Source: an uncultured Alcaligenaceae bacterium
Lineage (GTDB): Bacteria > Pseudomonadota > Gammaproteobacteria > Burkholderiales > Burkholderiaceae_B
Length of the DNA stretch: 24,875 nucleotides
Assembly (NCBI GenBank): GCA_937897265.1
Contig: CALCPT010000216.1
Location: forward strand, 1-24,875
Direction: 5' to 3'
Part shown: piece after piece, positions 1-24,875 of the stretch
Numbering within the stretch: the stretch's first letter is position 1
Layout of the letters: each line of letters starts with the position of its first letter
Notes under the pieces: model-generated
The model's database searches: none
Told to the model about the DNA's origin: nothing
Seen by the model: the letters and a program-made list of their open reading frames with translations, nothing else
Program-made: the position numbers and the translations under genes

Positions 1-176
1 TCACCGTGTCGATCGAGAATGCGCATGTCAGAGGGCTCATGAGAGGCTTTCACCTCAGCAAAGGACGGTAATCCCTCAGCACCCGCATTACCCGCGACGA
101 TGCCAACCCCCAGTATTGACAGACAAAGCACCCCACGGATGGCGTTCCAGGGCCAGCGGGTAGGGCGCGCAGTCAT
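1..176 (-). CDS. pbpC: Penicillin-binding protein 1C, N-terminal fragment
   Basis: The gene starts at the ATG at 176-174 and runs off the left edge, so only about 58 residues are visible. The reading shows a short basic N-terminus, a hydrophobic segment (residues about 14-30) that would act as a signal anchor, and then LPSFAEVKASHEPSD followed by ILDRHG. That is the characteristic opening of the PBP1C family just after the membrane anchor. PBP1C proteins are inner-membrane bifunctional peptidoglycan glycosyltransferase/transpeptidases with a C-terminal biPBP_C domain; none of those catalytic parts lies in the window. The ATG overlaps the stop of the upstream alpha-2-macroglobulin gene (ATGA at 176-173), so the two are probably translationally coupled, as in the yfhM-pbpC pair of enterobacteria. 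The family call rests on a short segment plus this conserved neighbourhood. Confidence 0.85.
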   Translation of the reverse strand, partial: MTARPTRWPWNAIRGVLCLSILGVGIVAGNAGAEGLPSFAEVKASHEPSDMRILDRHG

Positions 177-6079: not shown

Positions 6080-6248
6080 CGTGTTCCGTCTTAAGAGGAG
6101 TCGTCTGTTGCAGTGACACAAGGTGCCATCGCTCTAGCATAAACCTATCTGAGTACGATAGGCGTCTGCATCCAGCCTTTCAGGTTTCTCTAGGCGGCGG
6201 GCTGGGGGCTGCTGAGCCTACGCAGGCATTTGAACAAGATCTGCAAAA

Positions 6249-8802: not shown

Positions 8803-9936
8803 TTAGCGTTCAGCAACAGAGTAAGCAATAAATGGAAATTTGCACGGTGGCCCATCGGCCACATGCATCACACGACTTTCAAGGTCAATCAATACCGCGC
8901 CTGTTGTCATCGTTTGCTTGGCTTCGGCTTGGCGCGGATCAGGATGACGACATAGAGAGTGCGGCTCACTAAAGTGATCGCTCATGACGGCCGTCATTGT
9001 TGCTACGTCAATCTGCTTACCACCGCGCTCTAGCAAGCGACGCATGCGCGAAGCTCTGAACAAGGTGCCAGGGCTGACCTTTTCCATTTGCGACTCGCCG
9101 TGTCCGCTTCCCATAAAGTGATTTGAGTGCGTGACGATACCGTTGACAGGATTGATATAGGTAATGTGATTTGGGCTGGTTTCAAAATCAACGATTTCGC
9201 CTTGCGCGCCGCCAATCACAAAATTACCTGAGCAGGTGCGTTTGGTTGACACGATTGGCGTCAGCGCATCAGCATAGCGATCGGCGTCAAGTACTTCGCG
9301 ACACCGCATATGAAACGGCTTTTGGTACGGGTTACAGCCATCTAAGTGCGACGCCAGGCCGTTTTCAACCAAGCCAATGCCGCACTCGTTGACCCCCATT
9401 TTGCCGCCCACAATGCCGGCCTCGGTCATGCAGACAAGGCTTGGCTTATTTGACCGTTTAATACGCAACACAATCGTGCGTTGGTGCACGCCCGCGATCC
9501 AATCCCAATTTTGTCCAAGCCAGGTGTGGCCGTCGGCGGTGACGTCTGATAACAAACCAAAGGTTGTGCAGCCATCGGTTTCGCCCGTGGCTTGCTGCAA
9601 GGCTTGCTCTTGCTTGCGCGCGTCTTTGCCAAAAATCATAAAAGCAATCTCGTAGCGCGCATTCAATAGTGCGATCGCGGCTGAGGATTGTTCTGCACCT
9701 TTAGCGATACCCAGCATTTCTTCGGCGTAATCCGCGTTTTGGCTTTGCATGGCTGTTTGCCAACGCAAGGCTTCTTCTAGCGCCTCGGCGCGCGCCAGGC
9801 CCGAAGCCTCAAAACGGCGTAAATAGGTTTCAAGGTTTGCTGCCACATCCGCAGCGAAGGTTTTACCGTGGGCGACGCCACGCTCAAAGGCGTTGTCACC
9901 CACAGTCAGGCAGGGCATTTTGTCTCGTTTGCTCAC
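8803..9936 (-). CDS. C45-family peptidase / acyl-CoA:6-APA acyltransferase-like Ntn hydrolase
   Basis: This 377-residue protein resembles the C45 family (isopenicillin N acyltransferase, carcinine hydrolase and relatives). These are made as precursors that cut themselves before a Cys, which becomes the N-terminal nucleophile for amide hydrolysis or acyl transfer. The visible hallmark is DGCTTFG with Cys123, preceded by about 122 residues containing FERGVAHGK, typical of the A-chain. GQNWDW follows at about 135-142, a conserved region of the family. The start is GTG at 9936-9934, overlapping the ATPase stop (GTGA), with AAGG about ten bases upstream; an ATG six codons later is an alternative. 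No signal peptide is present, so it acts in the cytoplasm on a substrate probably imported by the co-transcribed ABC transporter. The exact amide substrate is unknown. Confidence 0.85.
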
Positions 9937-10760
9937 AGCAGCATCACCTTATACAGTTCGCGATTGATCTCACCCACTAAGCGAATAAAGTCGTCGGATA
10001 AACGCGTGTCTTCAGTGCGTGGGCGGGGTAGATCAATGTCATAAATTTTGTGAATACGACCAGGGCGTGCAGACATCAGCACGACTTGATCGGATAAAAA
10101 TACGGCTTCGGCAAGTGAATGCGTCACAAAGATCACGGTCTTGCGATATTGTTGCCAAATACGCATCAGTTCAAAGGCCATGCGATCGCGGGTGATCTCA
10201 TCAAGTGCGGCAAACGGCTCATCCATCAATAAAATCGAGGGATCAAGCGCCAAGGCACGCGCGAGCGCGGCCCGTTGTTGCATACCGCCTGACAACTGAT
10301 GAGGAAGTTTTTTCTCAAAACCTTTTAGACCAACGACCTCAAGCAGCTGCTCAACGCTTTGTGCTGTCTGCGAATTTTGTACCCGAGGCAAGTCAGTCGC
10401 GCTTTTGCTCTTTGCTTGCACCAACTCTTTCAGTAGCTTGACGTTTTTTTCAATCGTCAGCCAGGGCATCAAATTCGCTTGTTGAAACACTAAACCAATA
10501 CGACCTGCTTGTCGCAAAGCGCTGGGTGGCAGCCCGTTGATCGATACTTGCCCTTGAGTGGGCGGCATTAAATCTGCCAATACTTTTAGTAAGGTGCTTT
10601 TGCCGCAGCCAGAAGGGCCAACAAGTGAAACGAAGGCGCCATCGGCGACTTCAAGGTCAACCGGCGCTAAGGCTTGAACGGCCTGCGCCGAGCCAAGCCC
10701 ATAGGTGACCTGAATGCCCGCGATTGAAATGCCACGAGATGAAGACTGCACAGCACTCAT
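9933..10760 (-). CDS. ABC transporter ATP-binding protein, SsuB/TauB type
   Basis: This 275-residue ATPase energises a nitrate/sulfonate/taurine-type importer. It shows Walker [10 protein letters not shown] (residues 48-56), a Q-loop in [10 protein letters not shown] (91-100), the signature LSGGM (156-160), Walker B with ILLMDEP (176-182), a D-loop in FAALDE and the switch His214 in [16 protein letters not shown] is typical of the SsuB/TauB/NrtD subfamily. The length is usual, with no fused regulatory domain. The start ATG overlaps the binding-protein stop by ATGA (10760-10757), and its own stop overlaps the C45 gene, so the three are tightly coupled. The imported molecule is not deducible from the ATPase. 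Confidence 0.95.
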
Positions 10761-11824
10761 TTCGCGGGTTGCTTCACAAGTTTGGCCAGATCTTTTGCTT
10801 CATCAATGCTGTTGATGATGGCATTGGTGTACATGCTTTGCGCGGTCGGTTTTTTAGGCAAATCGCCACCGCTTGCCAAAATGTCGATTGAAGATTGCCA
10901 TTTTGCATCGGTCATCAAACCAAAGCGTTCAGCATAATCAGGCGTATTGTAAAGGTCGTAAATCATGCGAAGCTTGCGCGATTCAAGCTTAAGTTCGCGA
11001 TCAGGCGAAACCGCAACGATTTCTTTCATTGCTTCTTCAACATTGCCGTGAGTCCAGATTAAGCTCTTGATCGTTGCGCGTACAAAGCGCTTGACCAAAT
11101 CTGGGTTGCTTTTTAGCAGAGCCTCATTGGTATAAATCACTGTGCCGTAAAACTGTACGCCATAATCACGTACCGGCATCACGTTAACCGGAAACCCTTT
11201 GCCCTCAAGCGTCAACGCCTGGCCAAACGAATAACCAAATAGCCCATCGACCTGACCTGCAGCCAGCATCTGCACCTCAGCACCGCGTGCAACCGTCACA
11301 AAATCAACATCTTTACGGGTTAGACCGCCTTTGGCCAATACCGGCTCAATTAAGCCCATCACATTGGCTTGAAACCAGGCAAGTTTCATACCTTTCATTT
11401 TTTCTGGGGTAGTGATGCCCGCCTTGACTGGCGTGATGACTGAAAACGGATTGTCAGGTTGATCAGCCATCACAGCTACGACAGGCAGACCACTACCTTT
11501 TGCTTTGACAAAGGCGTCAGCATTGGTCACGCCAAATTGCTCGCGACCAGTTGCGATCATGACTTCGTTTTGTTGCCCAGCGGCTGGTGGACGAATTTCT
11601 AGATCAATACCCTCTGCCTTATAAAAACCTTGCGCACGACCACCAAAATATTGAGCGTGCATCCCCCAGGGTGTGAAGTTGATGCGCAGCACGACCTTAT
11701 CCAGGGCGAGGGCAGGGGCTGAAGAGAAGGCCAAGGTGCAGAGTGCGAGAGCGCTAAGGAAGGCGTGTTTGCTCAGACCTTGAATTGGGTTTAGACCTTT
11801 AAGTGAGTAGAAGCTTTTCATCAT
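10757..11824 (-). CDS. ABC transporter substrate-binding protein, NMT1/SsuA-like
   Basis: This 355-residue periplasmic receptor has an N-terminal signal peptide (hydrophobic segment about residues 22-40, AxA-type cleavage near SSAPALA). After it come [20 protein letters not shown] and [12 protein letters not shown], the opening of NMT1/THI5-like and SsuA-like receptors. The motif [20 protein letters not shown] is the usual ligand-site region of the family. Proteins of this family bind pyrimidines, sulfonates, nitrate, taurine or riboflavin, so the ligand cannot be named. Translation probably begins at the first of two adjacent ATGs (11824); GAAGG lies six bases upstream and only three bases separate it from the permease stop. 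It is second in the operon, and the enzyme partners downstream suggest an organic nitrogen or acylated ligand. Confidence 0.92.
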
Positions 11825-11827
11825 TTT

Positions 11828-12652
11828 TTACCTTCGTGAAGTCGAATCATTCAGACCAGTGCGCCACGACACCCGCGCTTCAATCCATGACATGAAATTA
11901 AAAAATACTGTGCCGATCACTGCGAGCGAGATGATCGCAGCAAACGAGCGGGCTGTATTAAAGTTAAAGCTGCCCGATAGCACTAAGTATCCTAGACCAT
12001 TAGACGCAGCCAGCCACTCGGCCACGATCGCCCCAAGTACGGCCAGAGTCGTCGCGATCCGTAACCCTGCAAAAATATACGGTATGGCATAAGGTAGCCT
12101 CAGCCTAAAGAGCAACTGCCGTTCGTTGGCGTCAACTGAACGAAACACATCCGCTAAGCCGCGATCTACCTCTTTAAAGCCCGCCATGGTGTTGATTACG
12201 ATCGGGAAAAAAGCAATCGACATCACCACGGCAATTTTTGATCCCATGCCTGCACCCACCCATACCAAAATCAAAGGTGCAATCGCAATTTTGGGCACGC
12301 TTTGCAAACCAACAAAAATGGGCATGATTAAGCGTTCAAGCAAGCTAAAGCGAATCATCAGGGCCGAGACGATCAAGGCAAACACTACCGCTGTCACATA
12401 GCCCGTTAAGATCGCCCAAATCGTGGCAAGCGAGTGCATTTGAATTAACGACCATTCATCAACAAACAGCTGCGCGATTTCGGTTGGAGCCGGGAGCAAG
12501 AAGTTAGGCACTTCAAAATACCGCACGCCCGTCTGCCAGAGCAGCAGCAGTACGACGATTAAAATTCCTGAACTCCAGCTTTCAAGCAGTCTGCCTAAGC
12601 GCGAAGCTTTTGCAGAGTGTTCGAGCGACGAGTTGTCAGTGCGACCAGACAT
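11828..12652 (-). CDS. ABC transporter permease, SsuC/TauC type
   Basis: This 274-residue inner-membrane protein forms the channel of the importer. About six hydrophobic segments are visible, starting at residues about 28-45 (GILIVVLLLLW), then about 80-100, 108-125, 132-152, 195-215 and 235-255. The ATPase-docking EAA-type loop is in the region of DVFRSVDANERQLLFRLRLP, followed by IPYIFAGLRIA, typical of BPD_transp_1 permeases of the SsuC type. It is the first gene of the operon. A ribosome binding site GAGGG (12660-12664) lies eight bases before the ATG. The upstream region holds a candidate sigma-70 promoter and the divergent deacetylase gene. Confidence 0.94.
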   Translation of the reverse strand: MSGRTDNSSLEHSAKASRLGRLLESWSSGILIVVLLLLWQTGVRYFEVPNFLLPAPTEIAQLFVDEWSLIQMHSLATIWAILTGYVTAVVFALIVSALMIRFSLLERLIMPIFVGLQSVPKIAIAPLILVWVGAGMGSKIAVVMSIAFFPIVINTMAGFKEVDRGLADVFRSVDANERQLLFRLRLPYAIPYIFAGLRIATTLAVLGAIVAEWLAASNGLGYLVLSGSFNFNTARSFAAIISLAVIGTVFFNFMSWIEARVSWRTGLNDSTSRR

Positions 12653-12680
12653 CCAAAATCCCTCAGTTGTTTAACTTGCT

Positions 12681-12710
12681 AACATATCTGACAGAGCTTA
12701 CTGTAGTCAA
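12681..12710 (-). promoter_or_regulatory. Candidate sigma-70 promoter of the ABC/C45/Gfo operon
   Basis: On the minus strand, TTGACT (12710-12705, five of six matches to the -35 consensus) is followed after 18 bases by TATGTT (12686-12681, four of six matches to the -10). It would start transcription near 12674, about 22 bases before the permease ATG. The divergent deacetylase start is only 28 bases from the -35, so one regulator could act on both genes. Confidence 0.45.
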
Positions 12711-12737
12711 CGTATTCTGGCCTTTAAAGGATTTGCT

Positions 12738-13568
12738 ATGCCACGCCACATCGTTTGTTTGACTTATGATTTTGATGTGCAATCTGGTTTTATCTCACGA
12801 GGGATGACTTCACCCACGCCCTTGTCGCGTGGCGAATTCGGGGTCGTGGGCTCAAAACGCATCCTAGATTTAGTGAAAGCGCACAGCATCCCCACTACTT
12901 GGTTTGTGCCAGGCTTTACGATTGAAACGTACCCTGCGGCCTGCGAGGCTGTGCTGAAGGGCGGTCACGAGATCGGCCACCATAGCTGGGCGCATATCCC
13001 GCCAGCCAGCCAAACTCTTGAAGAAGAAGAGTCTGACATGCTGCGCGCTAGTGCCGCCATCAAACAGCTCACCGGGGGTAGGGCAGTTGGCTATCGCTCG
13101 CCCTCATGGGATTTGAGCGAAAACACCTTAAATCTGTTGCTGAAGTATGGTTTTGAGTACGACAGCAGCATGATGGGTGGCGATTATCATCCTTACCCAG
13201 TGCGGGCCGGCGATCAAGTCAAACTTGGCGAACCCGTCAAATTTGGTAAAGAGACCAGCCTGATCGAAATGCCTATTAGCTGGCATTTGGATGACCACCC
13301 TCATTTTGAATACTGGCGCATGCCCACCACCGTCAACCCCGGCCTGCAAAGTGCCCGTACCGTGATGGAAAGCTGGCTAGACGAGTTCAGGTATTTCAAA
13401 AAGAGTACCGATTTCGGCATCCTGACCTACACCATGCATCCCTACGTTTTAGGTCGCGGCAACCGCATGCTGGCCTTTGAAGGCTTTGTTGAAAGCTTGA
13501 TTAAAGAGGGGGCCGAGTTTATGACGATGCAGAATGCTCTGACAGCAGGCAGAGGATTGTTGTACTAG
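12738..13568 (+). CDS. NodB-type polysaccharide deacetylase family protein (PuuE/HpPgdA/imidase-like)
   Basis: This 276-residue protein has the NodB homology fold. Motif 1 is TYDFD (Asp11, Asp13), motif 2 is HSWAH (His82, His86; the HxxxH metal pair), and motif 3 is GYRSPSW (Arg120, Trp124). TYDFD in place of the usual TFDDG, and HEIGHHSWAH, resemble the cytoplasmic PuuE-type allantoinases, HpPgdA and cyclic imide hydrolases rather than exported chitin or peptidoglycan deacetylases. There is no signal peptide, which supports a small-molecule or imide substrate inside the cell. AAAGGA (12726-12731) lies six bases before the ATG. It diverges from the ABC/C45/Gfo operon across an 85-bp gap and probably belongs to the same pathway. 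The substrate is unproven. Confidence 0.82.
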   Translation: MPRHIVCLTYDFDVQSGFISRGMTSPTPLSRGEFGVVGSKRILDLVKAHSIPTTWFVPGFTIETYPAACEAVLKGGHEIGHHSWAHIPPASQTLEEEESDMLRASAAIKQLTGGRAVGYRSPSWDLSENTLNLLLKYGFEYDSSMMGGDYHPYPVRAGDQVKLGEPVKFGKETSLIEMPISWHLDDHPHFEYWRMPTTVNPGLQSARTVMESWLDEFRYFKKSTDFGILTYTMHPYVLGRGNRMLAFEGFVESLIKEGAEFMTMQNALTAGRGLLY

Positions 13569-13740
13569 TTAAATAGTAATAGATGTACTATTTTTATTTG
13601 ACTAAATAATTGATATAAATTGTTTTAATTTAAAAATACAATATCTGCACATTAAGCAATAAAAATACGACATTGTATTTTTATATCCGGCAATAAAAAA
13701 CGATATTGTATTTTTATTGCCGGATATAAAAAATTTAAAT
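13569..13740. repeat. AT-rich island with repeated ATAAAAATACAATATC units
   Basis: From just after the deacetylase stop to about 13740 the sequence falls to about 19% GC (32 of 170 bases over 13571-13740), against about 50-55% nearby. The unit ATAAAAATACAATATC recurs: near-exact at 13630-13645 (plus), exact at 13702-13717 (minus), and diverged at 13659-13674 (plus) and 13671-13684 (minus). Two near-identical 28-29 bp direct repeats run 13656-13684 and 13690-13717. At its left edge AAATAGTA / TACTATTT (13571-13593) followed by T-rich sequence could act as a weak terminator for the deacetylase gene. No coding sequence is apparent. Confidence 0.7.
13678..13732. repeat. 22-bp perfect inverted repeat with 11-base loop
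   Basis: The arms 13678-13699 and 13711-13732 are exact reverse complements, each with a central TATCCGGCAATA core bounded by T5 and A5 runs. The loop 13700-13710 is ACGATATTGTA. It could extrude as a cruciform or fold as a strong RNA hairpin on either strand. The A/T runs are inside the stem rather than after it, so it is not a textbook terminator, although the gene on the right (Bug receptor, minus) ends only about 57 bases away. Confidence 0.75.
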
Positions 13741-13788
13741 GCACTTCTGGCCTTCTCTGCAACAGTGCTGAGTGACTGCTCAATAACG

Positions 13789-14772
13789 TTACTCAGCCAG
13801 CTTAATGTTGCCCTTCTTAATCACCTCGGCCCACTTTAAGGTCTCGGCGCTGACAAACGCCGACCACTCGGGCAGGGGTCTTAAGTCAGGTGTTGAGCCA
13901 CGCTGCGCCAGGGCTTGTTGCACACTTGCCTCGTTCAAAATCTGATGTACATCGTCAGACACCTTTTTCACAATCGCAGGCGCAGTGCCCTTAGGCATAA
14001 ACAAGCCCGCCCAACCCACGCCAACAAACCCAGGATAGCCTTGCTCGGCAATCGTTTGCACCTCAGGCAGTTGCGAGGCACGCTCGCTTGACAGTGAAGC
14101 AATCGCTTTTAGTTTGCCCGCTTGAATATGTGGCAACGATGAAGCCATCGTGTCAACCGCCAACATAATGTGCCCGCCCAATAAGTCATTCATCGCTGGG
14201 CCGCTGCCTTTGTATGACACGCCCGTGATGTCAATTTGCGCGCGTTGCTTGAAAAGCTCGGCAGCTAATTCAAGTGCGTTCGCACCATAACCCCAAGTGA
14301 GCTTGCCGGGCGCTTGCCGCGCAGCCTCTATTAAGTCTTTTAAATTGTTATATGGAGCAGACGGGTTCGCAAGAATCAACCAAGGTTGCGTAAACACTCC
14401 TGCAACCGGGACGAAATCGCGTTGCATGTTGTAGGGTAGTTTCGGATACAAGGCTTCGTTGACAGCAGTGGTGGTGCTGCTGGCAAAGGTAATGGTGTAG
14501 CCGTCAGGTGGGGCCTCTTTGCCGACCAGCATGCCAGGGATGCTGGCACCACCGCCTTTATTATCGACAAATACCGGCTGCCCCCAGCGTTGCGTTAAAC
14601 GCTCGGCTAACAAACGCGCGATGATGTCAGTGGCTTGCCCGGCCGGAAACGGCACCACCAAGCGAACCGTTTTATTGGGATAGGTTGCTTGTGTTTGCGC
14701 GGCTGACTGCGCTGAGGTCAGCGATAAGAGCGCTAGGGCGCCAGCGTTTAGTACTTGCAGAAATCGTTTCAA
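13789..14772 (-). CDS. Bug/TctC family periplasmic substrate-binding protein
   Basis: This 327-residue receptor belongs to the tripartite tricarboxylate receptor (Bug) family, expanded in Bordetella and other Burkholderiales. A Sec signal peptide (MKRFLQ, hydrophobic core, cleavage near SAQSAAQ) is followed by YPNKTVRLVVPFPAGQATD (the family opening; the usual loop is PFxxGGxTD, so Gln replaces the second Gly), APPDGYT and VSYKGSGPAMNDLLGGH. The start codon is TTG (14772-14770), supported by GAGG six bases upstream. No membrane TctA/TctB genes are nearby, the usual orphan state of Bug genes. The ligand is unknown; family ligands include carboxylates, amino acids and nicotinate-like acids. The gene stands alone between an AT-rich repeat island and tRNA-Asn. 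Confidence 0.92.
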   Translation of the reverse strand: MKRFLQVLNAGALALLSLTSAQSAAQTQATYPNKTVRLVVPFPAGQATDIIARLLAERLTQRWGQPVFVDNKGGGASIPGMLVGKEAPPDGYTITFASSTTTAVNEALYPKLPYNMQRDFVPVAGVFTQPWLILANPSAPYNNLKDLIEAARQAPGKLTWGYGANALELAAELFKQRAQIDITGVSYKGSGPAMNDLLGGHIMLAVDTMASSLPHIQAGKLKAIASLSSERASQLPEVQTIAEQGYPGFVGVGWAGLFMPKGTAPAIVKKVSDDVHQILNEASVQQALAQRGSTPDLRPLPEWSAFVSAETLKWAEVIKKGNIKLAE

Positions 14773-14847
14773 AGCTTGCCTCAGTTGTTATGGTGGTTTT
14801 AACGTGAATGTACCTTGACGCGCGCCCTGTGGCGAGTCGGGCTTCGT

Positions 14848-14877
14848 TTGGCTGAAGTATGTCAACTATGCTATAGT
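14848..14877 (+). promoter_or_regulatory. Candidate sigma-70 promoter of tRNA-Asn
   Basis: TTGGCT (14848-14853) and TATAGT (14872-14877, five of six matches) are separated by 18 bases. Transcription would begin near 14884, giving a leader of about 70 bases before the mature tRNA. That leader contains the AT-rich repeat copy at 14911-14934. Confidence 0.5.
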
Positions 14878-14910
14878 CTTGGACATCGCTGAGTTTGCAC
14901 GGCAGTTGTC

Positions 14911-14934
14911 TTTTTTATAAAAATACAATATCCG
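14911..14934 (+). repeat. Copy of the ATAAAAATACAATATC repeat in the tRNA leader
   Basis: Bases 14917-14932 match exactly, inverted, bases 13702-13717 of the island on the other side of the Bug gene, and match 15 of 16 with the direct unit at 13630-13645. It is preceded by a T run forming the small palindrome TTTTTATAAAAA (14912-14923). It lies between the tRNA promoter and the tRNA. Confidence 0.6.
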
Positions 14935-14953
14935 ACCGATTTTCAACGACAAT

Positions 14954-15029
14954 TCCCTGATAGCTCAGTCGGTAGAGCGACGGACTGTTAATCCGCAGGT
15001 CGCTGGTTCGAGTCCAGCTCGGGGAGCCA
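14954..15029 (+). tRNA. tRNA-Asn(GTT)
   Basis: A complete 76-base tRNA with genomically encoded CCA. The acceptor stem TCCCTGA pairs with TCGGGGA (one T-G wobble). The D-arm is GCTC...GAGC, the anticodon loop CTGTTAA carries GTT at 14987-14989, and the T-arm is GCTGG-TTCGAGT-CCAGC. The base pair at the top of the anticodon stem (position 27-43) is an A-C mismatch. The fold is otherwise regular, so the gene is probably functional. Confidence 0.97.
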
Positions 15030-15085
15030 AATTACTTCTGATAGCCGTTTCCGGCGGAAGGCAGGGCTCTAGGCTCTAATACAAG

Positions 15086-15118
15086 GGTCTTGAGGCAATT
15101 AGCCCCAAGGCCTTTTTT
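15086..15118 (+). terminator. Rho-independent terminator after tRNA-Asn
   Basis: GGTCTTGAGGC (15086-15096) and GCCCCAAGGCC (15102-15112) form an 11-bp stem with one G-T wobble and one mismatch around the loop AATTA, followed at once by six T (15113-15118). It lies 57 bases after the tRNA and ends its transcript. Confidence 0.8.
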
Positions 15119-15188
15119 GTTGAGAAAGAAACCCTACACACCCCAGTTCAGACTTAATCCTTTGTTTAAGATTTGGGGTAATTCCACT

Positions 15189-15890
15189 TCACGCTTGCTC
15201 CATGAAGCGCAGCATCAGGTGCGCCACACGTGCACCATCGTGGCCAGAGTGCAAGCCCGACAAGGCCTCATGATAGACCGCCTCGCCATACTGGACCCGG
15301 CGTTTTTCCAGCAAAAACGCGCTGTACTCTGGGTCAAACTCTGGATGGGGCTGTAAGCACAGCACCTGCTGACCTATGGCATAGGCCGCAATCGGACAGT
15401 GTGAATTGCTGGCCAGCAAACGCGCGCCTGTGGGCAGCTCTAACACCTGGTCCTGGTGACTGGCCAATAGACTGACTTGCTCTGAGCATTCTTCAAAATA
15501 CTGCGGCTCATGCCAAGTGTAGGTATGACGTCCCAGGCACCAGCCATGAGGGGCGCGGTCGACCTTGGCACCCAGGCAATGCGCGATCAGTTGATGCCCA
15601 AAACAAACACCAATGAGACGCTTTTTTTGCTTTAGCAAAGCGCTCACGCGCGAGCACAAGTCCAGCACCCAAGGCTCTTTTGAAAACGCATCTGCACGGC
15701 TGCCCGTCAGCAGCACGACATCGTAAGCATCAAACGAACCGGGGTACTGCGCGTGGCGTGCACTGAAGGTTTCGACATCGCCCTGAAAGCCCGCATCCCG
15801 CAACAAGCGCTCAAACATGTTGGCATAACTGCCCCAAATCGGTACGGCAGCTGGGTCTAAGTCATCGTTATCGAGAATGCACAGTTTCAT
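15189..15890 (-). CDS. Class I glutamine amidotransferase-like protein
   Basis: This 233-residue protein has the class I GATase fold. The nucleophile elbow is GVCFGHQ with Cys96, and the rest of the triad is His182 and Glu184 in QPHPEF. LLTGSRADAF (60-69) matches the oxyanion-side region of stand-alone GMP-synthase-like amidotransferases. It has no synthetase partner domain, so it may hydrolyse a gamma-glutamyl amide, as PuuD does for gamma-glutamyl-GABA, rather than deliver ammonia. The start codon overlaps the stop of the gamma-glutamyltransferase gene (ATGA, 15890-15887), so the two are translated together, which favours a gamma-glutamyl substrate. The specific reaction is an inference from context. 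Confidence 0.85.
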   Translation of the reverse strand: MKLCILDNDDLDPAAVPIWGSYANMFERLLRDAGFQGDVETFSARHAQYPGSFDAYDVVLLTGSRADAFSKEPWVLDLCSRVSALLKQKKRLIGVCFGHQLIAHCLGAKVDRAPHGWCLGRHTYTWHEPQYFEECSEQVSLLASHQDQVLELPTGARLLASNSHCPIAAYAIGQQVLCLQPHPEFDPEYSAFLLEKRRVQYGEAVYHEALSGLHSGHDGARVAHLMLRFMEQA

Positions 15891-17569
15891 TTAGTTTCAG
15901 GCAAGAAGCGAACACCTTTGCGAGCCAATCCACCACCTATGCCGATAGGCGTGCCGTCTGCCCGCCAGCAGGCGGCACCCTCGAGGGATCTATCGTCATG
16001 GAATTCAATCGCGTTCATGCCGCCGCCCACATTGGGTACGTGCACAACGCGGTGACCACGGGTTTGAAGTGAGGTGTGCAGTGCCTCAGAAAAGGCGGGC
16101 TCTAGCTCTAGCTCGAACCCTTGGGTCCAGATGCGGGGTGCCTCAACCGCCTCTTGCAAGCTCATGCCATGATCGATCAGGTTGATCACGGCTTGGAGCG
16201 CAGAAGTAAAGATCCTCAAGCCGCCAGGCAAACCGAGCGCGTAGCGGGGCTCACCGTCCTTGATCACCATTAAAGGTGCCATGGACGAAGTCACTCGCTT
16301 TCCGGGGGCCATTGAGTTGGCGCGGTCAGGCCTCGGATCGAGAACGTACAGATAATTATTGGGAATCATGCCAGTGCCTGGCACCATGTAGCGCGCACCA
16401 AACACCGAATTGATGGTCTGCGTGGCACTGACAATGCGCCCTTCACTGTCAGCTACGGTGATGTGGGTGGTGTTTGCGCTTTCAGCAGGCGCCAGGCCTG
16501 GGGACCACGTTTGTGCTTGATGCAGGTTTATTTGCTTGCGGCGCTCGGCAGCGTATTCGGCAGACAACAGTTTTTCGATGGGGACATTTACAAAGTCTGG
16601 GTCTGCAGTGACCGCAGAGCGATCTGTAAAAGCCATTTTCATGACCTCCGCGAGCAAGTGGACGCCTTGTTCGGTTCCGAAGCCGATGGCTTTTAGATCA
16701 AAACCTTCGAGCACGTTCAGCATTTGCCCGATGTGCAAAGGTCCTGCGCACGGTGGTGGCGGACCGATGATTTCAAAACCGCGGTAATCGCTACGTAATG
16801 CAGCGGGATGACGGGTGTTGTAGAGGCGTAAATCTTCTAGGCTTAAAAAGCCCTGTTGACTTGCAATGTCGGTACACAAGGCACGGCCGAGTGCCCCGCT
16901 GTACAAAGCGTTGGCACCTTCTTGGGCTACCAGCTTCAGGGTGTCGGCATAGGCGCCTTGCACCAGCAAATCGCCTTTTTGAAGCGCTTGACCTTGGGGC
17001 AAGAACAATCGAGAAATTTCGGGGTCTAGCGACAAATCAGCCGCGTTTTCGGTAATGCAGTCACTCAAGTATTGCGTGGCCCTGAAGCCACAAGAGGCGT
17101 GTTTGATGGCCGGCGTAATCACCTCTGACAAAGACATGGAACCATGCTGCGAAAGCATTTGGCACCAAGCCATCAGGTTGCCGGGTGTGGCCACGGCCTT
17201 TCTGCCTAAGCTGTGTTGGCGACCTACGCTTTCAAGCGAACCGGCAGGGGCTAACGCGTCGTGCGTGAAGGTGTGTGGGCCAACCGCTTGCGGACACGTG
17301 CCTTGGCCTTCCAGGATGGTGTGCGTCCCATCGGGATGACGAAGGTGTGCAAACCCGCCGCCGAGCAGGCCAACCATCATGGGTTCGACCACACTCAACG
17401 TGAACAGCGCTGCTACGGCTGCGTCGACTGCGTTGCCACCTGCGCACAACATTTCTGAGCCAGCAGCAGAGGCCAGGGGATGGTTGGTGACCACCATGCC
17501 ACGCGAGGCGCGAGCCGGTTGTTTTTCGGTGACAAAAGAGGTCCCGCAGTGATCTGTCCAATGGTTCAT
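15887..17569 (-). CDS. Gamma-glutamyltransferase family Ntn hydrolase
   Basis: This 560-residue protein belongs to the gamma-glutamyltransferase / cephalosporin acylase family, which is cut into two subunits by its own catalytic Thr. The cleavage and nucleophile site is NTTHITVADSEG with Thr367 as the first T of TTH. Downstream are QTINSVFGA and MAPGKRVTSSMAPLM, the usual small-subunit substrate loop. Near the N-terminus GMVVTNHPLASAAG and GGNAVDAAVAA mark the family. The start chosen is the ATG at 17569 because the 39 codons before it are Tyr/Phe-rich and not family-like; neither start shows a strong ribosome site. No clear signal peptide is visible from that start, so the enzyme may be cytoplasmic, unlike E. 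coli Ggt. It is first in a pair with the amidotransferase gene and diverges from the nitrile hydratase genes. Confidence 0.9.
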   Translation of the reverse strand: MNHWTDHCGTSFVTEKQPARASRGMVVTNHPLASAAGSEMLCAGGNAVDAAVAALFTLSVVEPMMVGLLGGGFAHLRHPDGTHTILEGQGTCPQAVGPHTFTHDALAPAGSLESVGRQHSLGRKAVATPGNLMAWCQMLSQHGSMSLSEVITPAIKHASCGFRATQYLSDCITENAADLSLDPEISRLFLPQGQALQKGDLLVQGAYADTLKLVAQEGANALYSGALGRALCTDIASQQGFLSLEDLRLYNTRHPAALRSDYRGFEIIGPPPPCAGPLHIGQMLNVLEGFDLKAIGFGTEQGVHLLAEVMKMAFTDRSAVTADPDFVNVPIEKLLSAEYAAERRKQINLHQAQTWSPGLAPAESANTTHITVADSEGRIVSATQTINSVFGARYMVPGTGMIPNNYLYVLDPRPDRANSMAPGKRVTSSMAPLMVIKDGEPRYALGLPGGLRIFTSALQAVINLIDHGMSLQEAVEAPRIWTQGFELELEPAFSEALHTSLQTRGHRVVHVPNVGGGMNAIEFHDDRSLEGAACWRADGTPIGIGGGLARKGVRFLPETK

Positions 17570-17703
17570 ACAAATGATGGTGAGGTGGGGGCATGGAAAG
17601 TAGAGATACAACTTAGTCTGAAAATGCACTAAAAACAAGGTTGAATCCTGACCACCATAGGTGCGACGCCGACTAAACCCTAGCAAAAAGCTGTCTTAAT
17701 TTT

Positions 17704-17766: not shown

Positions 17767-18372
17767 ATGGACGAAGACGGCATGAATTCCAACAAATCTG
17801 CATCCGTAGAAGATCGTATGAATGCGATCCAGTCAGTGCTGGAAGCGCGCGGTATGGAACCGGCTGCCGCTATTGACCAAGCCTATCATCGGGCCGAAGA
17901 AGACTGGGTACCACGCAACGGTGCCCGGATCATCGCCAAAGCCTGGACTGATCCGGCGTATCGACAGCGGCTTTTGGCGGATGGTAAAGCTGCAGCTGCT
18001 GAGCTAGGCTTCGACATGCCGCCCCATCATCGTTATCTTGTCGCACTTGAAAACACCTCGAAGATTCACAATGTGATTGTTTGCACATTGTGCTCTTGCA
18101 CTGCGTTTTCGATTATTGGATTGCCGCCTGATTGGTATAAGGATCTGGAATATAGGGCACGTGTCGTCAGAGAGTCTCGCACAGTACTCAAGGAAATGGG
18201 TCTTGATCTGCCTGCGACCACCGAGATCAAAGTGTGGGATACCACCACGGATACTCGATACATGGTCGTTCCACATCAACCTCCAGAAACAATAGGCTGG
18301 CCAGAGGATCGGCTTGTGGAAATCATCACAAAAGAATCAATGATCGGCGTTGCACGCTTAATGGGGAGCTAG
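17767..18372 (+). CDS. Nitrile hydratase alpha subunit, cobalt-type motif
   Basis: This 201-residue subunit carries the metal site that hydrates nitriles to amides. The metal-binding claw is VCTLCSC at residues 105-111, with Cys106, Cys109, Ser110 and Cys111 as ligands. Thr107 is the residue associated with cobalt rather than iron enzymes. It is followed by TAFSIIGLPPDWYK, where most family members I recall read [TY]PWP-VLGLPPDWYK, so the Pro-Trp-Pro next to the metal is missing. WVPRNGARIIAKAW and the GLPPDWYK end of the region are family-typical and the length (about 200) is normal. AGAGAAA about ten bases before the ATG is a weak ribosome site; Met6 is an alternative start. The beta gene follows three bases after the stop. 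Thiocyanate hydrolase gamma subunit is a related alternative. Confidence 0.93.
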   Translation: MDEDGMNSNKSASVEDRMNAIQSVLEARGMEPAAAIDQAYHRAEEDWVPRNGARIIAKAWTDPAYRQRLLADGKAAAAELGFDMPPHHRYLVALENTSKIHNVIVCTLCSCTAFSIIGLPPDWYKDLEYRARVVRESRTVLKEMGLDLPATTEIKVWDTTTDTRYMVVPHQPPETIGWPEDRLVEIITKESMIGVARLMGS

Positions 18373-18375
18373 AAC

Positions 18376-18993
18376 ATGGACGGTGTACACGATATGGGCG
18401 GTCGCCAGGGGTTCGGCGTCATCCGCTATGCGCCCAATGCATCAGTATTCCACGCAGAATGGGAAAGAAGAGCCAATGCGCTCTACGGCCTTGCTGTTCG
18501 TCATGGCATCTTCAACATGGACGAGTATCGTCATGCCATTGAGCGCATGTCGCCATACCATTACATGTCAGCAAGTTACTACGAGCGCACACTGACTAGC
18601 CTTGCGACGTTGCTCGTCGAAAAAGGAGTGACGACCCGGGAGGAACTCGAAAAGCTGGCGAAGGGGGCATTCCCTCTCGCAGGGCCAAGCGCTGCGGGCC
18701 GCAGTAATCTGCCTGATCGGCAGCAGTTCAAGCCCGGTGACCGTGTACGTGTGCGCAATGAGTTCTTCGCAGGGCATATCCGCATGCCCGCCTACATTCG
18801 CGGCAAGCAAGGTGTCGTCGTGCGAGAAACACCTGCCTACCCATTTCCCGATGCACATGCCCACGGCATTCAGGCTGAGGACGAACCGACATACGATGTC
18901 GCCTTTCGCACTGAGGACTTATGGCCCAATGCGTCGGACTCTGCGCAAGTGCATGTGGGGGTATTCCAAAGCTACTTGCAAAAAGAGGACTGA
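18376..18993 (+). CDS. Nitrile hydratase beta subunit
   Basis: This 205-residue subunit completes the alpha-beta nitrile hydratase. It begins with the hallmark MDGVHDMGG and continues QGFGVIRY and FHAEWERR. Arg52 in YRHAIERM and Arg150 just after GKQGVVV fit the two conserved arginines that contact the oxidised cysteines of the alpha subunit. The C-terminal SH3-like barrel contains FKPGDRVRVRN (118-128), YPFPDAHAHG (155-164) and YDVAF. GGGAG at 18363-18367 lies eight bases before the ATG. Alpha-before-beta order also occurs in Pseudomonas putida cobalt enzymes, but there a P14K activator gene follows. Here a Bug receptor follows after 70 bases and no activator is seen. Confidence 0.95.
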   Translation: MDGVHDMGGRQGFGVIRYAPNASVFHAEWERRANALYGLAVRHGIFNMDEYRHAIERMSPYHYMSASYYERTLTSLATLLVEKGVTTREELEKLAKGAFPLAGPSAAGRSNLPDRQQFKPGDRVRVRNEFFAGHIRMPAYIRGKQGVVVRETPAYPFPDAHAHGIQAEDEPTYDVAFRTEDLWPNASDSAQVHVGVFQSYLQKED

Positions 18994-20220: not shown

Positions 20221-21093
20221 TTATTCAGGGCTAAAGCGCGCACCAATCGCTGCGGCGGCCGAGCGAGTTTCAACACCGAGCTTGTTAAAGATATGTTCAA
20301 GGTGTTTGTTGACGGTGCGCGGGCTCATTCCAAGTATCTCAGCGATGTCGCGGTTGGTTTTTCCTTTTGCAAGCCACGATAAGACTTCGCTTTCGCGTTG
20401 TGTAAGCGCGGCTTGTTGTAAACGAGCCGAGTCTCCACCGGTTATTGTTGCCTGAGCAAGCAAGAGCATGGTTTCACCCAGGCCCACCTTGCCCAGATTA
20501 CGGACCGAAAGTTCTGGATACCCTGAGAAGGTTAGCCGTTCGCTGCCAGTTTTAAGTAGTGCCGAAAGATCTAAGGCCGACAGGTCCTCTTTTAACCACA
20601 GCCGCGCTCTTGGGGAGTGCCAGGCGATACGCCCTATAGAGTCAATCAGTACGACGCCAAAGCCTGCTACATCGACAGCTTCTCGTGCCAGACGGGCAAC
20701 ACGGGCGTTACGGATATGCACTTGTAGCCTTGCCAGCACCTCTTCGGCTTTGACTGGCTTGACAACGTAATCTACACCCCCGCTATCAAAACCGCTCACA
20801 AGGGCATCGGTTTCAGATAATCCTGTCATAAAGATTACAGGCACGTGGCTAAAGGCGGGGTTGGCTTTGATACGTTTGCACGTTTCAAAACCTGACAAGC
20901 CAGGCATCACTGCGTCAAGCAGTACCGCATCGACTAAAACCATCTCAAGTCGCTCGAGCGCCACCTCGCCGCTGAGTGCGACCACCACGTCATAGCCCGC
21001 AGCCTCAAGCGATTGGTAAAGAGGCCCTAGGCTGCTGGGCACGTCATCCACCAGCAAAACGATTGGACGCATGGCAGACAGTTGCTCAGTCAT
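20221..21093 (-). CDS. LuxR/NarL-type response regulator with receiver domain
   Basis: This 290-residue regulator has an N-terminal receiver with acidic Asp16/Asp17, phospho-acceptor Asp60 in VLLDAVMPG, Thr90 and Lys112 in VVKPVK. The middle (about 140-215) looks like a short PAS-related segment ([20 protein letters not shown]). The C-terminal LuxR helix-turn-helix (229-285) contains [20 protein letters not shown] and [18 protein letters not shown]. Canonical NarL proteins are about 210-220 residues, so the middle is an extra module of roughly 75. The start ATG lies inside the end of the permease-kinase gene (8-base overlap, 21093-21086), which makes that kinase its likely partner. Target genes are unknown; the nitrile hydratase operon and the allophanate-hydrolase-like gene are candidates by position. 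Confidence 0.93.
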
Positions 21094-24000
21094 CGTGGGG
21101 CTGTTTGGTCAGTTTGAGTAACGACTCGAAATCAAAGCGTAAGACCATTGCACGCAAGCTTTGCGTCAAGGACAGATGAGACGGTTCGTGTTGCGCGTGG
21201 CGGTCCAACAGGTTGAGTAATCCCTGCACATGACCGGTTTTAAGTAGCTGCACCATTTTTTCGCGTAGAACCTCTGGAATACTTTCTTCAGTCAAAGCAA
21301 CTTCTGTGCCAAATTTTGAAGGTAAATCAACGCCGCTGAGTTCGGCTGAGATCCATTCGATACCCAGATAGCGCCCTAATACCCCGATCAGTTCAGACTC
21401 AAGGACGGGCTTGCTCACAAACGCCTGACAATTAGCCAGAGCGAGTTTGTCAGCGTGATTGTCAAAGAGATTGGCCGATACCATGATGATTGGGATGTCT
21501 ATGTATCCACGAGCACGAATCGCTTTTGCAGTCTCCCAGCCGTCCATTTCGTCCATCGAAATATCTAGCAAAATGGCGTCGGGTTTATGATCGCTCAAAC
21601 TTTCAAGGCACTCGCTACCGCTAGCCGCTTCGCGCATGTTGAACCCCAAGGGGCTCAGAAGTGCGGCGAGCATTTGTCGTTGATCCGCTTGGTCATCAAC
21701 CGCCAAGAGGGTGAGGCGCTTGCCTGTGTATCCAGATACCGCACCCACCGCCGGCATTTGAGGGCCGGGATGGGCAGCGTGTGGCATGTAGAGTTTGACA
21801 GTGAATGTGCTCCCTGAATTTTGCTGGCTCGTCATTGATAAATCGCCGCCCATCATCGACGTCAATAAGCCAGTGATCGTGAGGCCAAGCCCTGTGCCCG
21901 GCTCGCCGCGCAGACGTGCAGCACCGCCGCGCTCGAAAGGCAAGAAAATACGCTGCTGGTCTTGCGGCGCAATGCCCACCCCGGTGTCTTCGACATGAAA
22001 TTGCAAGACTTGGGTACGTGCATCCACACGCAACGTCACGCAGCCTTTATCTGTGAATTTGATCGCGTTGCCGAGCAAGTTGATTAAGATCTGAGTGAGG
22101 CGCTTTGCGTCACCTTTGACCCACGCGGGGAGTTCACCGTTCAGTTGATAGACAAATTCAAGACCCCGCGCTTGCACTTGAGGTCGCACCATACGTACGA
22201 GCTCGTCGAGCAGTTGAGGTAGCGGTATCGCAGTGGTTTCAAGCCGCAGTCGGCCTGATTCGATGTGCGCCAAATCCAGTAAGTCATCAATGAGGCCTGC
22301 CATATGCGAGCCACTGCGCTTGACGGTTTCAAGCGCCTCGCGTTGCGAACGCGCAAGAGAGTTGTCTTTAAGCAAAATATGCGAGTAACCAAGAATGCTG
22401 TTTAGCGGTGTTCGCAATTCGTGAGTCATGCCTGCAACATAGCGGCTCTTGGCGCGATTAGCGTGTTCAGCTTGTTCTTTTGCCAACTGAAGTGCTGCAT
22501 CAGTGCGCCTGAGCACCTCAACTTCGCGTTGTAGTAAACGACTTTGTGCGTTGGATTCTTCTTGAGCCAGCCGACGACTTTCGCTGATTAATACGACCCA
22601 CCAACTACAGACTGCGACTAACAGTAGGAGCATTAAAAATACTCTCAAAAAAACGTTAGCTTGAAAGGTGTAAGCAGTGTTTTCAAACGAATTATCCTGA
22701 CTTAAGGCAATACCCATGACAGTCGCCAGAACGACAGTCAATGAAACGAAGACCAACAGAAAACGTGCAGCCCGTGATTTAAATTTTTCAGAAAAAACAT
22801 TGGGTAAAAGATGGATCATCCAGTCTGAGGCTTGCTGGTCGAGTCGTGAGCCTACTTTGCATGAGTCGTGGCAACGCGAGTCTAACGAACAGCACAGAGA
22901 ACAGATTGGTGCCCCATAGGCGGGACAGTGAGCCATGTCAGGAAGCTCAAATGGGTTTTCGCACACACTGCACTGAACAATGCCATTGACGCTTGCCAAG
23001 GAGGTTGGGCGCCTGGCGCTGTACCAGCGACTGCGTGTGAGCCAGGCAAATAGGGGCGAGAGTGCGATCGAGAGCACGAGCGCGATGAAGGGCGCAAAGG
23101 CCTTGGCGGTATCTCCAAAGAGGCCGTTATAAGCTAGCAAGGCGAGGGCCGCAGCGCAGAGCATCGCACCCAGACCAACTGGATTGATGTCGTAGAGGTG
23201 AGCGCGTTTGAATTCTAAGCCTTTAGGCGAGAGGCCAAGCGGTTTATTGATCACAAGATCGGCCACCAACGCTCCAATCCAGGCGATCGCTACGTTGCTA
23301 TATAGCCCCAGTACATGCTCAAGTGCTCGAAACACACCCAAAGTCATGAGTAAGGTGGCAATTAATACATTGAAGATGAGCCACACAACCCGACCTGGAT
23401 GGCTGTGGGTGAGGCGAGCAAAAAAGTTAGACCAAGCGAGCGAACCGGCATAGGCATTTGTCACGTTAATTTTGATCTGCGAAACGATGACGAATAGCGT
23501 TGTGATCCCTAAGACCCAGCGCGTATCGTCAAACACATAACTAAAACCCGCTAGATACATACGCGTCGGTTCGCTTGCGATCTCGGTTGGTAGCTCAACT
23601 TGAAGCACTAGAAAGGCAAGAAACGCTCCCCCCATCATTTTTGCCATGCCGGGAATTATCCAGCCAGGCCCCGCGATGATGACCGCGGCCCACCAACGCA
23701 CGCGATTAACAGAGGTTTTTTCAGGCAAAAATCTCAAGTAGTCGACTTGCTCCCCAATTTGCACCACGAGTGAGCAGGCTACGGTCGATGCTGCACCAAA
23801 CATGAGCCAGTCAAAGTCACTGCTCCCTGACAGCTGACCACTTAAGCCCGTGAAGGCTTTAAAGGCAGCGGGGTCTTTCAAGGCGATCGCGATATAGGGG
23901 CTGACCAAGAGCACGAGCCACAGTGCTTGTGTCCAAATTTGTAGCTTTGAAATCAACGTGATGCCGCGCACCACAAGAGGGACCACGACCAATGCGCTGA

Positions 24001-24490
24001 TGATGTAACACCAGACAATAGGCCAGTCGAGATACAACTGTAAAGCAAGCGCCATGATAGCCGCTTCGAGTGCAAAAAATATAAAGGTGAAGGCAGCGTA
24101 AATGAGCGAGGTGATGGTTGACCCAACGTAGCCAAAGCCTGCACCGCGCGTCAGCAAATCTATATCAACCCCGTAGCGCGCGGCGTAGACGCTGATGGGC
24201 AGGCCGGCCAGAAAAATAATCAGCCCGGTGGCCAGGATGGCCCAAAACGCGTTGGTAAAGCCGTACTGCACCAGCAGCGTGGCGCCAACCGCCTCCAGAA
24301 TCAGGAACGAAGCCGCACCAAACGCGGTGTTGGCCACGCGGAACTCGCTCCACTTGCGCGCCGAGCGAGCGGTGAAACGCAGTGCGTAATCCTCCAGCGT
24401 TTCGTCGGCCACCCAGGTGTTGTAGTCGCGGCGGATCTTGATGATCCGCTGCTCCTGCGGTGCTGCATGGGTGGTGGGGCTGGTGCTCAT
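21086..24490 (-). CDS. NCS1 permease-histidine kinase-receiver fusion (hybrid sensor kinase)
   Basis: This 1134-residue protein joins a transporter to a sensor kinase. Residues 1-490 are an NCS1 (purine/cytosine/hydantoin/allantoin) permease with about 12 membrane segments; [32 protein letters not shown] and [10 protein letters not shown] are family motifs. Residues 507-545 hold eight Cys (507, 510, 522, 530, 533, 534, 540, 545) and two His, probably a zinc site. Two more membrane segments (about 576-597, 613-635) and a coiled coil (about 638-680) precede HisKA with His690 in [12 protein letters not shown]. The ATPase has Asn807 (NLLGNAIKF), DTGVGI and GTGLGL. A receiver follows (Asp932/933, Asp976, Lys1027), then a helical tail (1050-1134) without an obvious phospho-accepting His. 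The layout recalls CbrA, where an SLC5-type transporter is fused to a kinase. It likely senses or carries a nucleobase-like or hydantoin-like nitrogen compound. It overlaps the regulator gene by 8 bases. The first ~110 codons are much GC-richer than the rest. Confidence 0.95.
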
Positions 24491-24536
24491 GGCCCGGTAA
24501 CAGGCGCAAGAACCGCGCCTCGACGGTCGTCACGGC

Positions 24537-24554
24537 CTACGTCAGATGACGTAG
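24537..24554. promoter_or_regulatory. 18-bp palindrome, possible activator site
   Basis: CTACGTCA and TGACGTAG form a perfect inverted repeat with a GA centre. It lies 47 bases upstream of the permease-kinase ATG and about 75-92 bases upstream of the predicted start of the sigma-54 promoter on the other strand, a usual distance for an enhancer-binding protein. A second perfect palindrome, ATCGGCCGAT, is at 24563-24572. Confidence 0.4.
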
Positions 24555-24602
24555 CCGGCGCGATCGGCCGATGGGACGCCGGCGATCGCGACGGCCGATC
24601 CT

Positions 24603-24617
24603 TGGCATATCGCTTGC
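24603..24617 (+). promoter_or_regulatory. Sigma-54 (RpoN) promoter candidate
   Basis: TGGCATATCGCTTGC matches the -24/-12 consensus TGGCAC-N5-TTGC at all positions but one, with exact spacing; GG is at 24604-24605 and GC at 24616-24617. Transcription would start near 24629 toward the allophanate-hydrolase-like gene. Sigma-54 control would fit a nitrogen-scavenging enzyme. The ATG at 24624 would lie upstream of this start, which argues for the TTG at 24666 as the translation start. Confidence 0.6.
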
Positions 24618-24635
24618 GACGTCATGAATCCTTGT

Positions 24636-24645
24636 TTGTATACAA
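24636..24645. promoter_or_regulatory. TTGTATACAA palindrome, GntR/FadR-type operator candidate
   Basis: A perfect 10-bp palindrome that fits the TNGT-N(0-3)-ACNA half-site pattern of the FadR/FCD branch of GntR repressors. It sits just after the predicted sigma-54 transcription start and before the likely ribosome site, where a bound repressor would block transcription. No GntR gene is in the window. Confidence 0.35.
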
Positions 24646-24665
24646 CAACGGAGCGGACCCCTGCC

Positions 24666-24875
24666 TTGGCTCTCGATGTCTCTTCTGCTTCCCTGACGTC
24701 GGCGCCGCGCGCGGCCGCTGCCGAGGCGCGGCTGTCCGCCGCTTCGCTGCAGGCCGTGCTGCGCGCCGGCGGCCTCAGCGTCAGCAGCCTGATGCACCAC
24801 TTTCTGGCGCAGCGCACTGCAGTGGCGCGTCCGGACGTCTGGATCGCGCAGGTCCCGGATGCCGAGGTGCTGGCC
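24666..24875 (+). CDS. Probable allophanate hydrolase (amidase family), N-terminal fragment
   Basis: The frame is open to the right edge; about 70 codons are visible from the TTG at 24666. SAASLQAVLRAGGLS followed by RPDVWIAQVPDAEVLA resembles the N-terminus of allophanate hydrolases of the AtzF type, where a helix ending in a short turn precedes a WI..LP..E.L segment before the amidase-signature domain. Such enzymes split allophanate to ammonia and CO2 in urea, biuret or s-triazine breakdown. The catalytic Ser-Ser-Lys core is outside the window. GGAG at 24650-24653 lies 12 bases before the TTG; an ATG at 24624 is in frame but would precede the predicted sigma-54 transcript start. The segment is very GC-rich (about 82% over 24721-24780). 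It diverges from the permease-kinase gene. A general amidase is the alternative. Confidence 0.55.
   Translation, partial: MALDVSSASLTSAPRAAAAEARLSAASLQAVLRAGGLSVSSLMHHFLAQRTAVARPDVWIAQVPDAEVLA

Follow-up and report, generated by a model that had tools for sequence, protein, structure and literature searches.

Several sensor systems are known in which a nutrient carrier forms the input part of a histidine kinase. In CbrA and CrbS, working with CbrB and CrbR, a carrier of the LeuT-type fold is fused to a histidine kinase; CrbR, the partner of the SLC5 sensor CrbS, is a LuxR-family regulator that needs an inverted repeat, according to the available part of its report (PMC5715377), and thereby resembles the regulator-dyad pair described here. 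Ks-Amt5 is likewise a nutrient carrier made a receptor by kinase fusion; it differs from the present protein by its Amt domain, trimeric state and ammonium ligand, as given in the accessible text of PMC5764959. Here, a fusion of this kind is described in a DNA stretch of 24,875 nucleotides from an uncultured Alcaligenaceae bacterium (contig CALCPT010000216.1, assembly GCA_937897265.1), herein referred to as the window. The fusion gene encodes, in one open frame, an NCS1-type carrier domain, an 8-Cys module, two transmembrane (TM) helices and a hybrid histidine kinase, and is followed by a gene for a LuxR/NarL-type response regulator (Table 1). The fusion is real and widespread, and its best explanation is an NCS1-type carrier that became a receptor kinase for amides or urea. 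We assign a probability of about 0.75 to the reading that this receptor controls the genes for uptake and breakdown of amides or urea through the neighbouring regulator and a dyad-symmetric DNA site.

Mhp1 and CodB share the fold and a distant sequence kinship with the window protein, as the NCS1 member MetT presumably does, and all three, unlike it, have no kinase. AmiC/AmiR also controls amide use (amidase), but does so through a ligand-binding negative regulator (AmiC) and an antiterminator (AmiR), not through a membrane carrier-kinase. This pair is reported not found in the fmdA-urt locus of Pseudomonas veronii in the part of PMC13209695 that was available. Among the top-listed matches in open-licence papers, no characterised member of the family and no description of an NCS1-kinase fusion were found, in agreement with an earlier note on this DNA, made from the sequence alone, which knew of no characterised example. 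Two candidates were rejected: AruS of P. aeruginosa, considered as a characterised relative, is judged by the description in the start of an abstract to be a kinase studied for activation by solute-binding proteins, and GrtK of the GrtK/GrtR ammonia sensor is, in the excerpt available, a 427-amino acid (aa), six-TM, PilS-like kinase of another family. The carrier family, the ligand class, the operator with its regulon and the Cys module are new; the principle is already known from CbrA/CrbS and Ks-Amt5.

Analysis of the open reading frames placed the fusion on the minus strand, the plus strand across the same interval being closed by many stops. Hydropathy gave 12 hydrophobic TM segments (residues 56-482) before the Cys cluster and two after it, and in a structure model one unbroken helix (residues 605-707) connects the final TM segment with that of HisKA. 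H690 and D976 are each kept in 56 of the 56 full-length relatives, so that HisKA, HATPase_c and a receiver with conserved His and Asp identify a hybrid histidine kinase. A STAC linker was not reported by Pfam for the fusion protein, in which the stretch after the carrier consists of the Cys module and the two TM helices. The regulator gene is the next after the fusion gene and overlaps it by 8 bp; its product combines a receiver with GerE in Pfam, as NarL/FixJ/LuxR regulators do. The observation of the earlier note, a full-length NCS1 permease joined in frame to a Cys cluster, two membrane segments, HisKA, HATPase and a receiver, is partly confirmed: everything from the Cys cluster to the receiver was found in one minus-strand frame, whereas the NCS1 domain is invisible to direct Pfam.

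Table 1. Features of the fusion locus in the window (positions are those of the whole stretch).
Feature	Position	Strand	Basis or remark
Carrier-kinase fusion gene, 1134 aa	21086..24490	-	One open frame; full-length relatives
NCS1-type carrier domain, ~residues 33-494, 12 TM	23009..24394	-	
K340, aligned with Mhp1 T313	23471..23473	-	Profile alignment, Mhp1 numbering from chain sequence
8-Cys module, residues 507-544	22859..22972	-	Alignment of 56 full-length relatives
Two additional TM helices (residues 578-596, 617-635)	22586..22759	-	Hydropathy
HisKA, residues 680-746, phospho-acceptor H690	22253..22453	-	Pfam
HATPase_c, residues 793-901	21788..22114	-	Pfam
Response_reg receiver, residues 929-1035, D976	21386..21706	-	Pfam
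LuxR/NarL-type response regulator (receiver 12-123, GerE 229-281)	20221..21093	-	Pfam
16-bp dyad TACGTCA-N2-TGACGTA, exact, candidate operator	24538..24553	.	Inside suspected chimeric end
Suspected chimeric contig end (first ~110 codons and upstream)	24105..24875	.	Step in GC and third-position GC, identity switch, diagnostic residues

A direct scan with PF02133 gave no match in the window protein and matched 1 of 20 alignment members (E 8.5e-8); for the carrier part, direct Pfam and PDB sequence searches returned nothing useful. Since the direct scan was silent, recognition as NCS1 required profile-profile comparison and a structure model. With hhalign, the family profile matched the canonical NCS1 profile at 99.2% (E 1.3e-19, 386 columns) and, in a repeat under another column rule, at 99.0% (E 3e-18); the canonical profile recovers CodB and Mhp1 in PDB. 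In the fold ranking of the structure model, the top four were CodB (34.2) and Mhp1 (29.9, 27.7, 27.1), with Nramp next (24.0). The domain is thus homologous by profile to canonical NCS1 members, which are also its nearest solved folds.

In the profile alignment, S312 and T313 of Mhp1, which we take to form the Na2 site with T313 acting in Na2, are aligned with I339 and K340 of the window protein; Q121 is aligned with E142, W117 with F138, and N318, presumably the substrate Asn, with N345. The Na2-site Ser/Thr of Mhp1 are not universal among NCS1. K340, which the alignment places at the Na2-equivalent position to within perhaps one residue, is Lys in 121 of 121 rows, and Q244, E247, Q248, D250, N342 and N345 are equally invariant. 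In the comparison with Mhp1 proposed in the earlier note, the Asn aligned at N318 is kept and, by this alignment, the Na2 Ser/Thr are replaced. K340 is also present in both free (kinase-less) carriers of the branch and so marks the branch, not the receptor role. Residue E66 in TM1 is kept in 120 of the 121 sensors (the remaining row has a gap), and the two free carriers have Q and F at this position. In the structure of CbrA, K196 lies in the Na2 site (PMC13022988, accessible part); together with K340, two carrier-kinases of different families therefore seem to have a Na2 Lys.

The fusion is widespread. A protein search gave at least 8000 candidates at E 0.001, the best 120 of them being 62-92% identical over 97-100% of the query, and the fusion was matched in 18 of 369 genomes of the class sample and in 52 of 398 genomes of the phylum sample. 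Open frames of at least 894 aa hold 57 of the 58 matches from the phylum, and the other is a 29% match in a 552-aa frame. Permease and kinase are therefore normally one gene, contrary to the case of separate genes that the earlier note had named as a refutation. The frames of two loci, L183 and L191, have just 894 and 899 aa; both adjoin FmdA, have no urtA nearby and perhaps encode receiver-less sensors. Kinase-less relatives in the class sample were two, L021 and L017.

Neighbouring genes were located by tblastn with reference genes, the NCBIfam names of which are UrtA-D, formamidase FmdA, aliphatic amidase and urease alpha. They were tabulated for 80 named loci (of at least 578 confirmed) and 40 phylum-sampled loci (of the 58 matches). 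In the named loci, the regulator was found in 71, UrtA in 54, FmdA in 30, AmiE in 18 and UreC in 24, with at least one urea or amide gene in 69 of 80; in the phylum-sampled loci, the corresponding numbers were 38, 36, 31, 17 and 3, with at least one such gene in 40 of 40. The tabulation proposed in the earlier note thus shows the fusion to be recurrent across genomes, with amide or urea genes beside it in 109 of 120 loci outside the window. There are two main kinds of loci: in one, the sensor is divergent from an amide-type urt-fmdA-fmdB-amiE set; in the other, it stands with urease or a urea-type urt. The transport genes beside formamidase in Bradyrhizobium were argued to carry amide, not urea (PMC3098086, in the part available).

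Labelling by neighbours gave 67 amide loci and 41 urea loci, 1 locus with both labels and 12, the window among them, with neither. In a FastTree phylogeny, in which 28 of 118 inner branches are weakly supported and seven rows without a start motif were cut at a fixed offset, the amide and urea labels need 4 changes over 108 labelled rows, and the body of the window protein groups with L023 and L024, both amide-labelled, with starred support. Columns such as 64 (A vs I/V), 148 (L vs Y) and 406 (G vs mostly M) separate the clades and are candidate specificity positions. Additionally, amide-type UrtA (at least 69% identical to the L063 protein) was found in 37 of 398 phylum genomes, and 37 of 37 carry the fusion (Fisher p 2e-40, uncorrected for kinship). 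Any UrtA match was found in 168 of the 398 genomes; the urea type, with 37-45% identity in most of the rows listed, is common and usually occurs where the fusion is absent.

Free carriers tie the carrier fold itself to amides and urea in two cases. In L264, the regulator and the fusion are followed by the dyad and then by a kinase-less carrier from this branch, with FmdA, FmdB and AmiE behind it; the free carrier occupies the place normally held by the ATP-binding cassette (ABC) transporter. In L263, a free carrier lies between urease genes and a NixA-type nickel permease; UreC is a tblastn match there, and the labels nickel permease, UreF and UreG come from reading the sequence.

The dyad was first seen in the intergenic region of L023, TACGTCAATTGACGTA. 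The exact copy in the window is the sole one (at most one mismatch) in its genome as assembled. With at most three mismatches, the dyad was found within ~320 bp upstream of the fusion in 55 of 121 loci, compared with 1 of 605 stretches drawn at random from these loci. With at most two mismatches, there are 80 sites in 2.32 Mb of loci: 56 precede the fusion, 12, 2 and 8 lie no more than 140 bp from fmdA, amiE and urtA, respectively, and 2 are elsewhere. For the core TACG-N8-CGTA, 104 sites fall in the 126,848 bp that precede the fusion, urtA, fmdA or amiE, and the remaining 2.20 Mb contains 8. Upstream of urtA, it was found in 27 of 30 fusion-bearing genomes, many of these regions being the same intergenic regions as in the count of 55, and in 0 of 20 fusion-negative genomes picked from the UrtA match listing. 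NarL-type regulators read 7-2-7 inverted repeats, and the regulator beside the fusion would be the protein that binds the dyad.

The domains, the NCS1 kinship, the neighbourhoods, the co-occurrence, the operator enrichment and, by alignment, the invariant Lys at the Na2-equivalent position are directly supported here; we infer ligand identity, the sign of regulation, the phosphate route, the coupling by the Cys module and the presence or absence of transport. In the proposed mechanism, the carrier domain would bind a small amide centrally, of the formamide/acetamide class in the clade of the window and urea in the sister clade. The conformational change would pass through the 8-Cys module and the two TM helices to the long helix, of which the dimerisation helix of HisKA is the continuation. 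Autophosphorylation would take place at H690, and the phosphate would move to the kinase's own receiver and then to the neighbouring regulator. The latter would bind TACGTCA-N2-TGACGTA before urtA, fmdA, amiE and the sensor gene and switch on uptake and hydrolysis of the compound that the carrier domain senses.

Several points weigh against this mechanism. The loci are related, and their counts are not independent. Eleven of the 80 named loci have no urea or amide gene in the DNA covered, nine of them on stretches longer than 12 kb, and in the window, which lacks its genuine upstream flank, the sensor has neither an amide ABC transporter gene nor an amidase gene beside it. The core dyad was found in 60 of the 67 amide loci, 1 of 1 mixed and 2 of 12 unlabelled loci but in only 17 of the 41 urea loci, and it is absent from L263, L183 and L191. 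The fusion-negative control consists of urea-type urtA, since every amide-type urtA found came with the fusion. For the NCS1 kinship, the fold ranking is the sole comparison with unrelated carrier families.

A carrier domain that still transports amide or urea while signalling, as for histidine and CbrA, is possible, and we regard it tentatively as the lesser prospect. The domain has its full length with 12 TM, free sister carriers adjoin the same enzymes, and N345, aligned with the presumed substrate residue N318 of Mhp1, is found in all 121 rows. However, an ABC transporter is usually encoded beside the sensor (UrtA in 36 of 40 loci), so uptake need not come from the sensor, and E66 of the sensors gives way to Q or F in the two free carriers. 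The known carrier-kinases point both ways: CbrA, which also has a Na2 Lys, reportedly takes up histidine (PMC13022988, accessible part), whereas Ks-Amt5 lost transport (PMC5764959, accessible part). It is unlikely that the domain senses a general cue, such as ammonium, membrane energy or another nitrogen signal, with the neighbours merely forming a nitrogen-scavenging regulon. Both amides and urea yield ammonia, and a Lys at the Na2-equivalent position could give the carrier a proton response; yet the sensor clades split by the substrate class of their neighbours and differ at residues such as 64, 148 and 406, as expected for substrate specificity.

The interpretation of the earlier note is partly supported. 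Its ligand, a nucleobase-, hydantoin- or allantoin-like compound, is highly improbable: the characterised NCS1 carriers Mhp1, CodB and PucI do move such rings, but the NCS1 member MetT takes the ringless metformin (both in the available part of PMC13390362), and amide or urea genes adjoin the sensor in 109 of 120 loci, no search having been aimed at hydantoinase, allantoinase or cytosine deaminase. An assembly artefact as the source of the window frame hardly deserves belief and is refuted for the carrier-kinase joint. The first ~110 codons and the upstream flank do look chimeric, but the joint sits over 1.1 kb into the consistent part, and relatives with the same joint occur in the protein collection, in named genomes and in sampled genomes; an assembly error as considered in the earlier note would be confined to the 5' end.

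If the amide/urea receptor reading holds, a former carrier would serve as a receptor for formamide, acetamide or urea in roughly one in eight of the Pseudomonadota genomes sampled (52 of 398), a regulator would be supplied for amide-use operons without AmiC/AmiR, and NCS1, alongside SLC5 and Amt, would count among the carrier families that became kinase receptors. Receptors with a Na2 Lys would become comparable across two carrier families (K196 of CbrA and K340 here). The dyad would provide a ready reporter, so that ligand and mechanism could be tested directly, and the free sister carriers would permit comparison of carrier and receptor within one fold. We give roughly even odds to a wider proposal of a separate invention of the carrier-kinase receptor. 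A previously undescribed amide/urea branch of NCS1, having a Na2 Lys and an 8-Cys module that probably binds zinc, would have given rise to free carriers and, by fusion, to a widespread receptor-kinase family. This family would have split into amide- and urea-sensing clades and would be the missing regulator of fmdA/amiE/urt operons across Pseudomonadota.

Of the 8 Cys in the cluster, six are found in 56 of 56 full-length relatives and two in 55 of 56 (one gap), and the module probably binds zinc. A small model of it (pLDDT, the predicted local distance difference test score, 71.5) gave weak likeness in Foldseek (best E 0.47), with RING, FYVE, PHD and LIM in the top rows. Pfam gave weak matches only: 5 of 37 members matched Prok-RING_1 (best E 0.018), and the module of the window protein had no match at all; PDB profile matches were short and finger-like. 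A treble-clef-like zinc module would be our guess. The kinase-less carrier L021 retains the whole module at its C-terminus and L017 a part of it; the module is therefore not tied to the kinase.

The fusion start codon is preceded by 385 bp of contig, and the suspected junction lies at ~24105-24190. The GC content rises from ~0.5 to 0.64-0.72 in the last 0.6 kb of the contig, and the GC content at third codon positions is 0.80-0.85 in codons 1-100 and 0.45-0.75 thereafter. Over residues 61-100, identity is 97.5% to P0195 and others but 59% to P0001, to which residues 141-660 are 92-95% identical. Residues 60, 64, 88 and 95 are of the urea-clade type, and most diagnostic positions from 148 on are of the amide type. 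Nucleotide identity switches near codon 105-130 from urea-labelled loci to L023; the best-matching loci for 24300-24490 are mixed, including the amide-labelled L039, so the donor clade is uncertain. The end thus has the look of a chimera with a GC-rich relative from within the family and is read as a misassembly in a conserved stretch, with recombination as an alternative; the 5' end of this fusion copy is therefore not to be trusted. A truncated plus-strand frame of 84 aa (24624-24875), divergent from the sensor, runs off the contig inside this part. Its reading as the start of an allophanate hydrolase or amidase-signature protein was rejected, finding no support in NCBIfam (81 residues), plasmid tblastn or loci tblastn.

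Elsewhere in the genome of the window, contig C650 carries a urtC'-D-E-fmdA-amiE set with 87% DNA identity to L023 over 1.9 kb, and C516 carries a urea-type urtA. A PF02133 match was not found in this assembly, which is 89% complete. Contig C578 (L120:2731-3897) has a second FmdA-like gene, 37% identical to the query, with two stop codons in the matched stretch.

Near the sensor, genes for nitrile hydratase alpha and beta chains were found at 17767-18993 (+). The products of nitrile hydratase are amides, and the alpha-chain motif CTLCSC is presumably of the cobalt type. Nitrile hydratase was found in 0 of 120 other loci and is therefore not counted as part of the system. The genes at 8803-17686 form a run themed on amide bonds and uptake: a C45-type acyltransferase, an ABC transporter of the sulfonate/nitrate kind, and polysaccharide-deacetylase-like, amidotransferase-like and gamma-glutamyltransferase genes. 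A tRNA gene (14954-15026, +; Rfam RF00005, 69 bits) lies between TctC-type and amidotransferase-like genes. A frame of 1982 aa at 173-6121 (-) reads as a bacterial alpha-2-macroglobulin-type protein.

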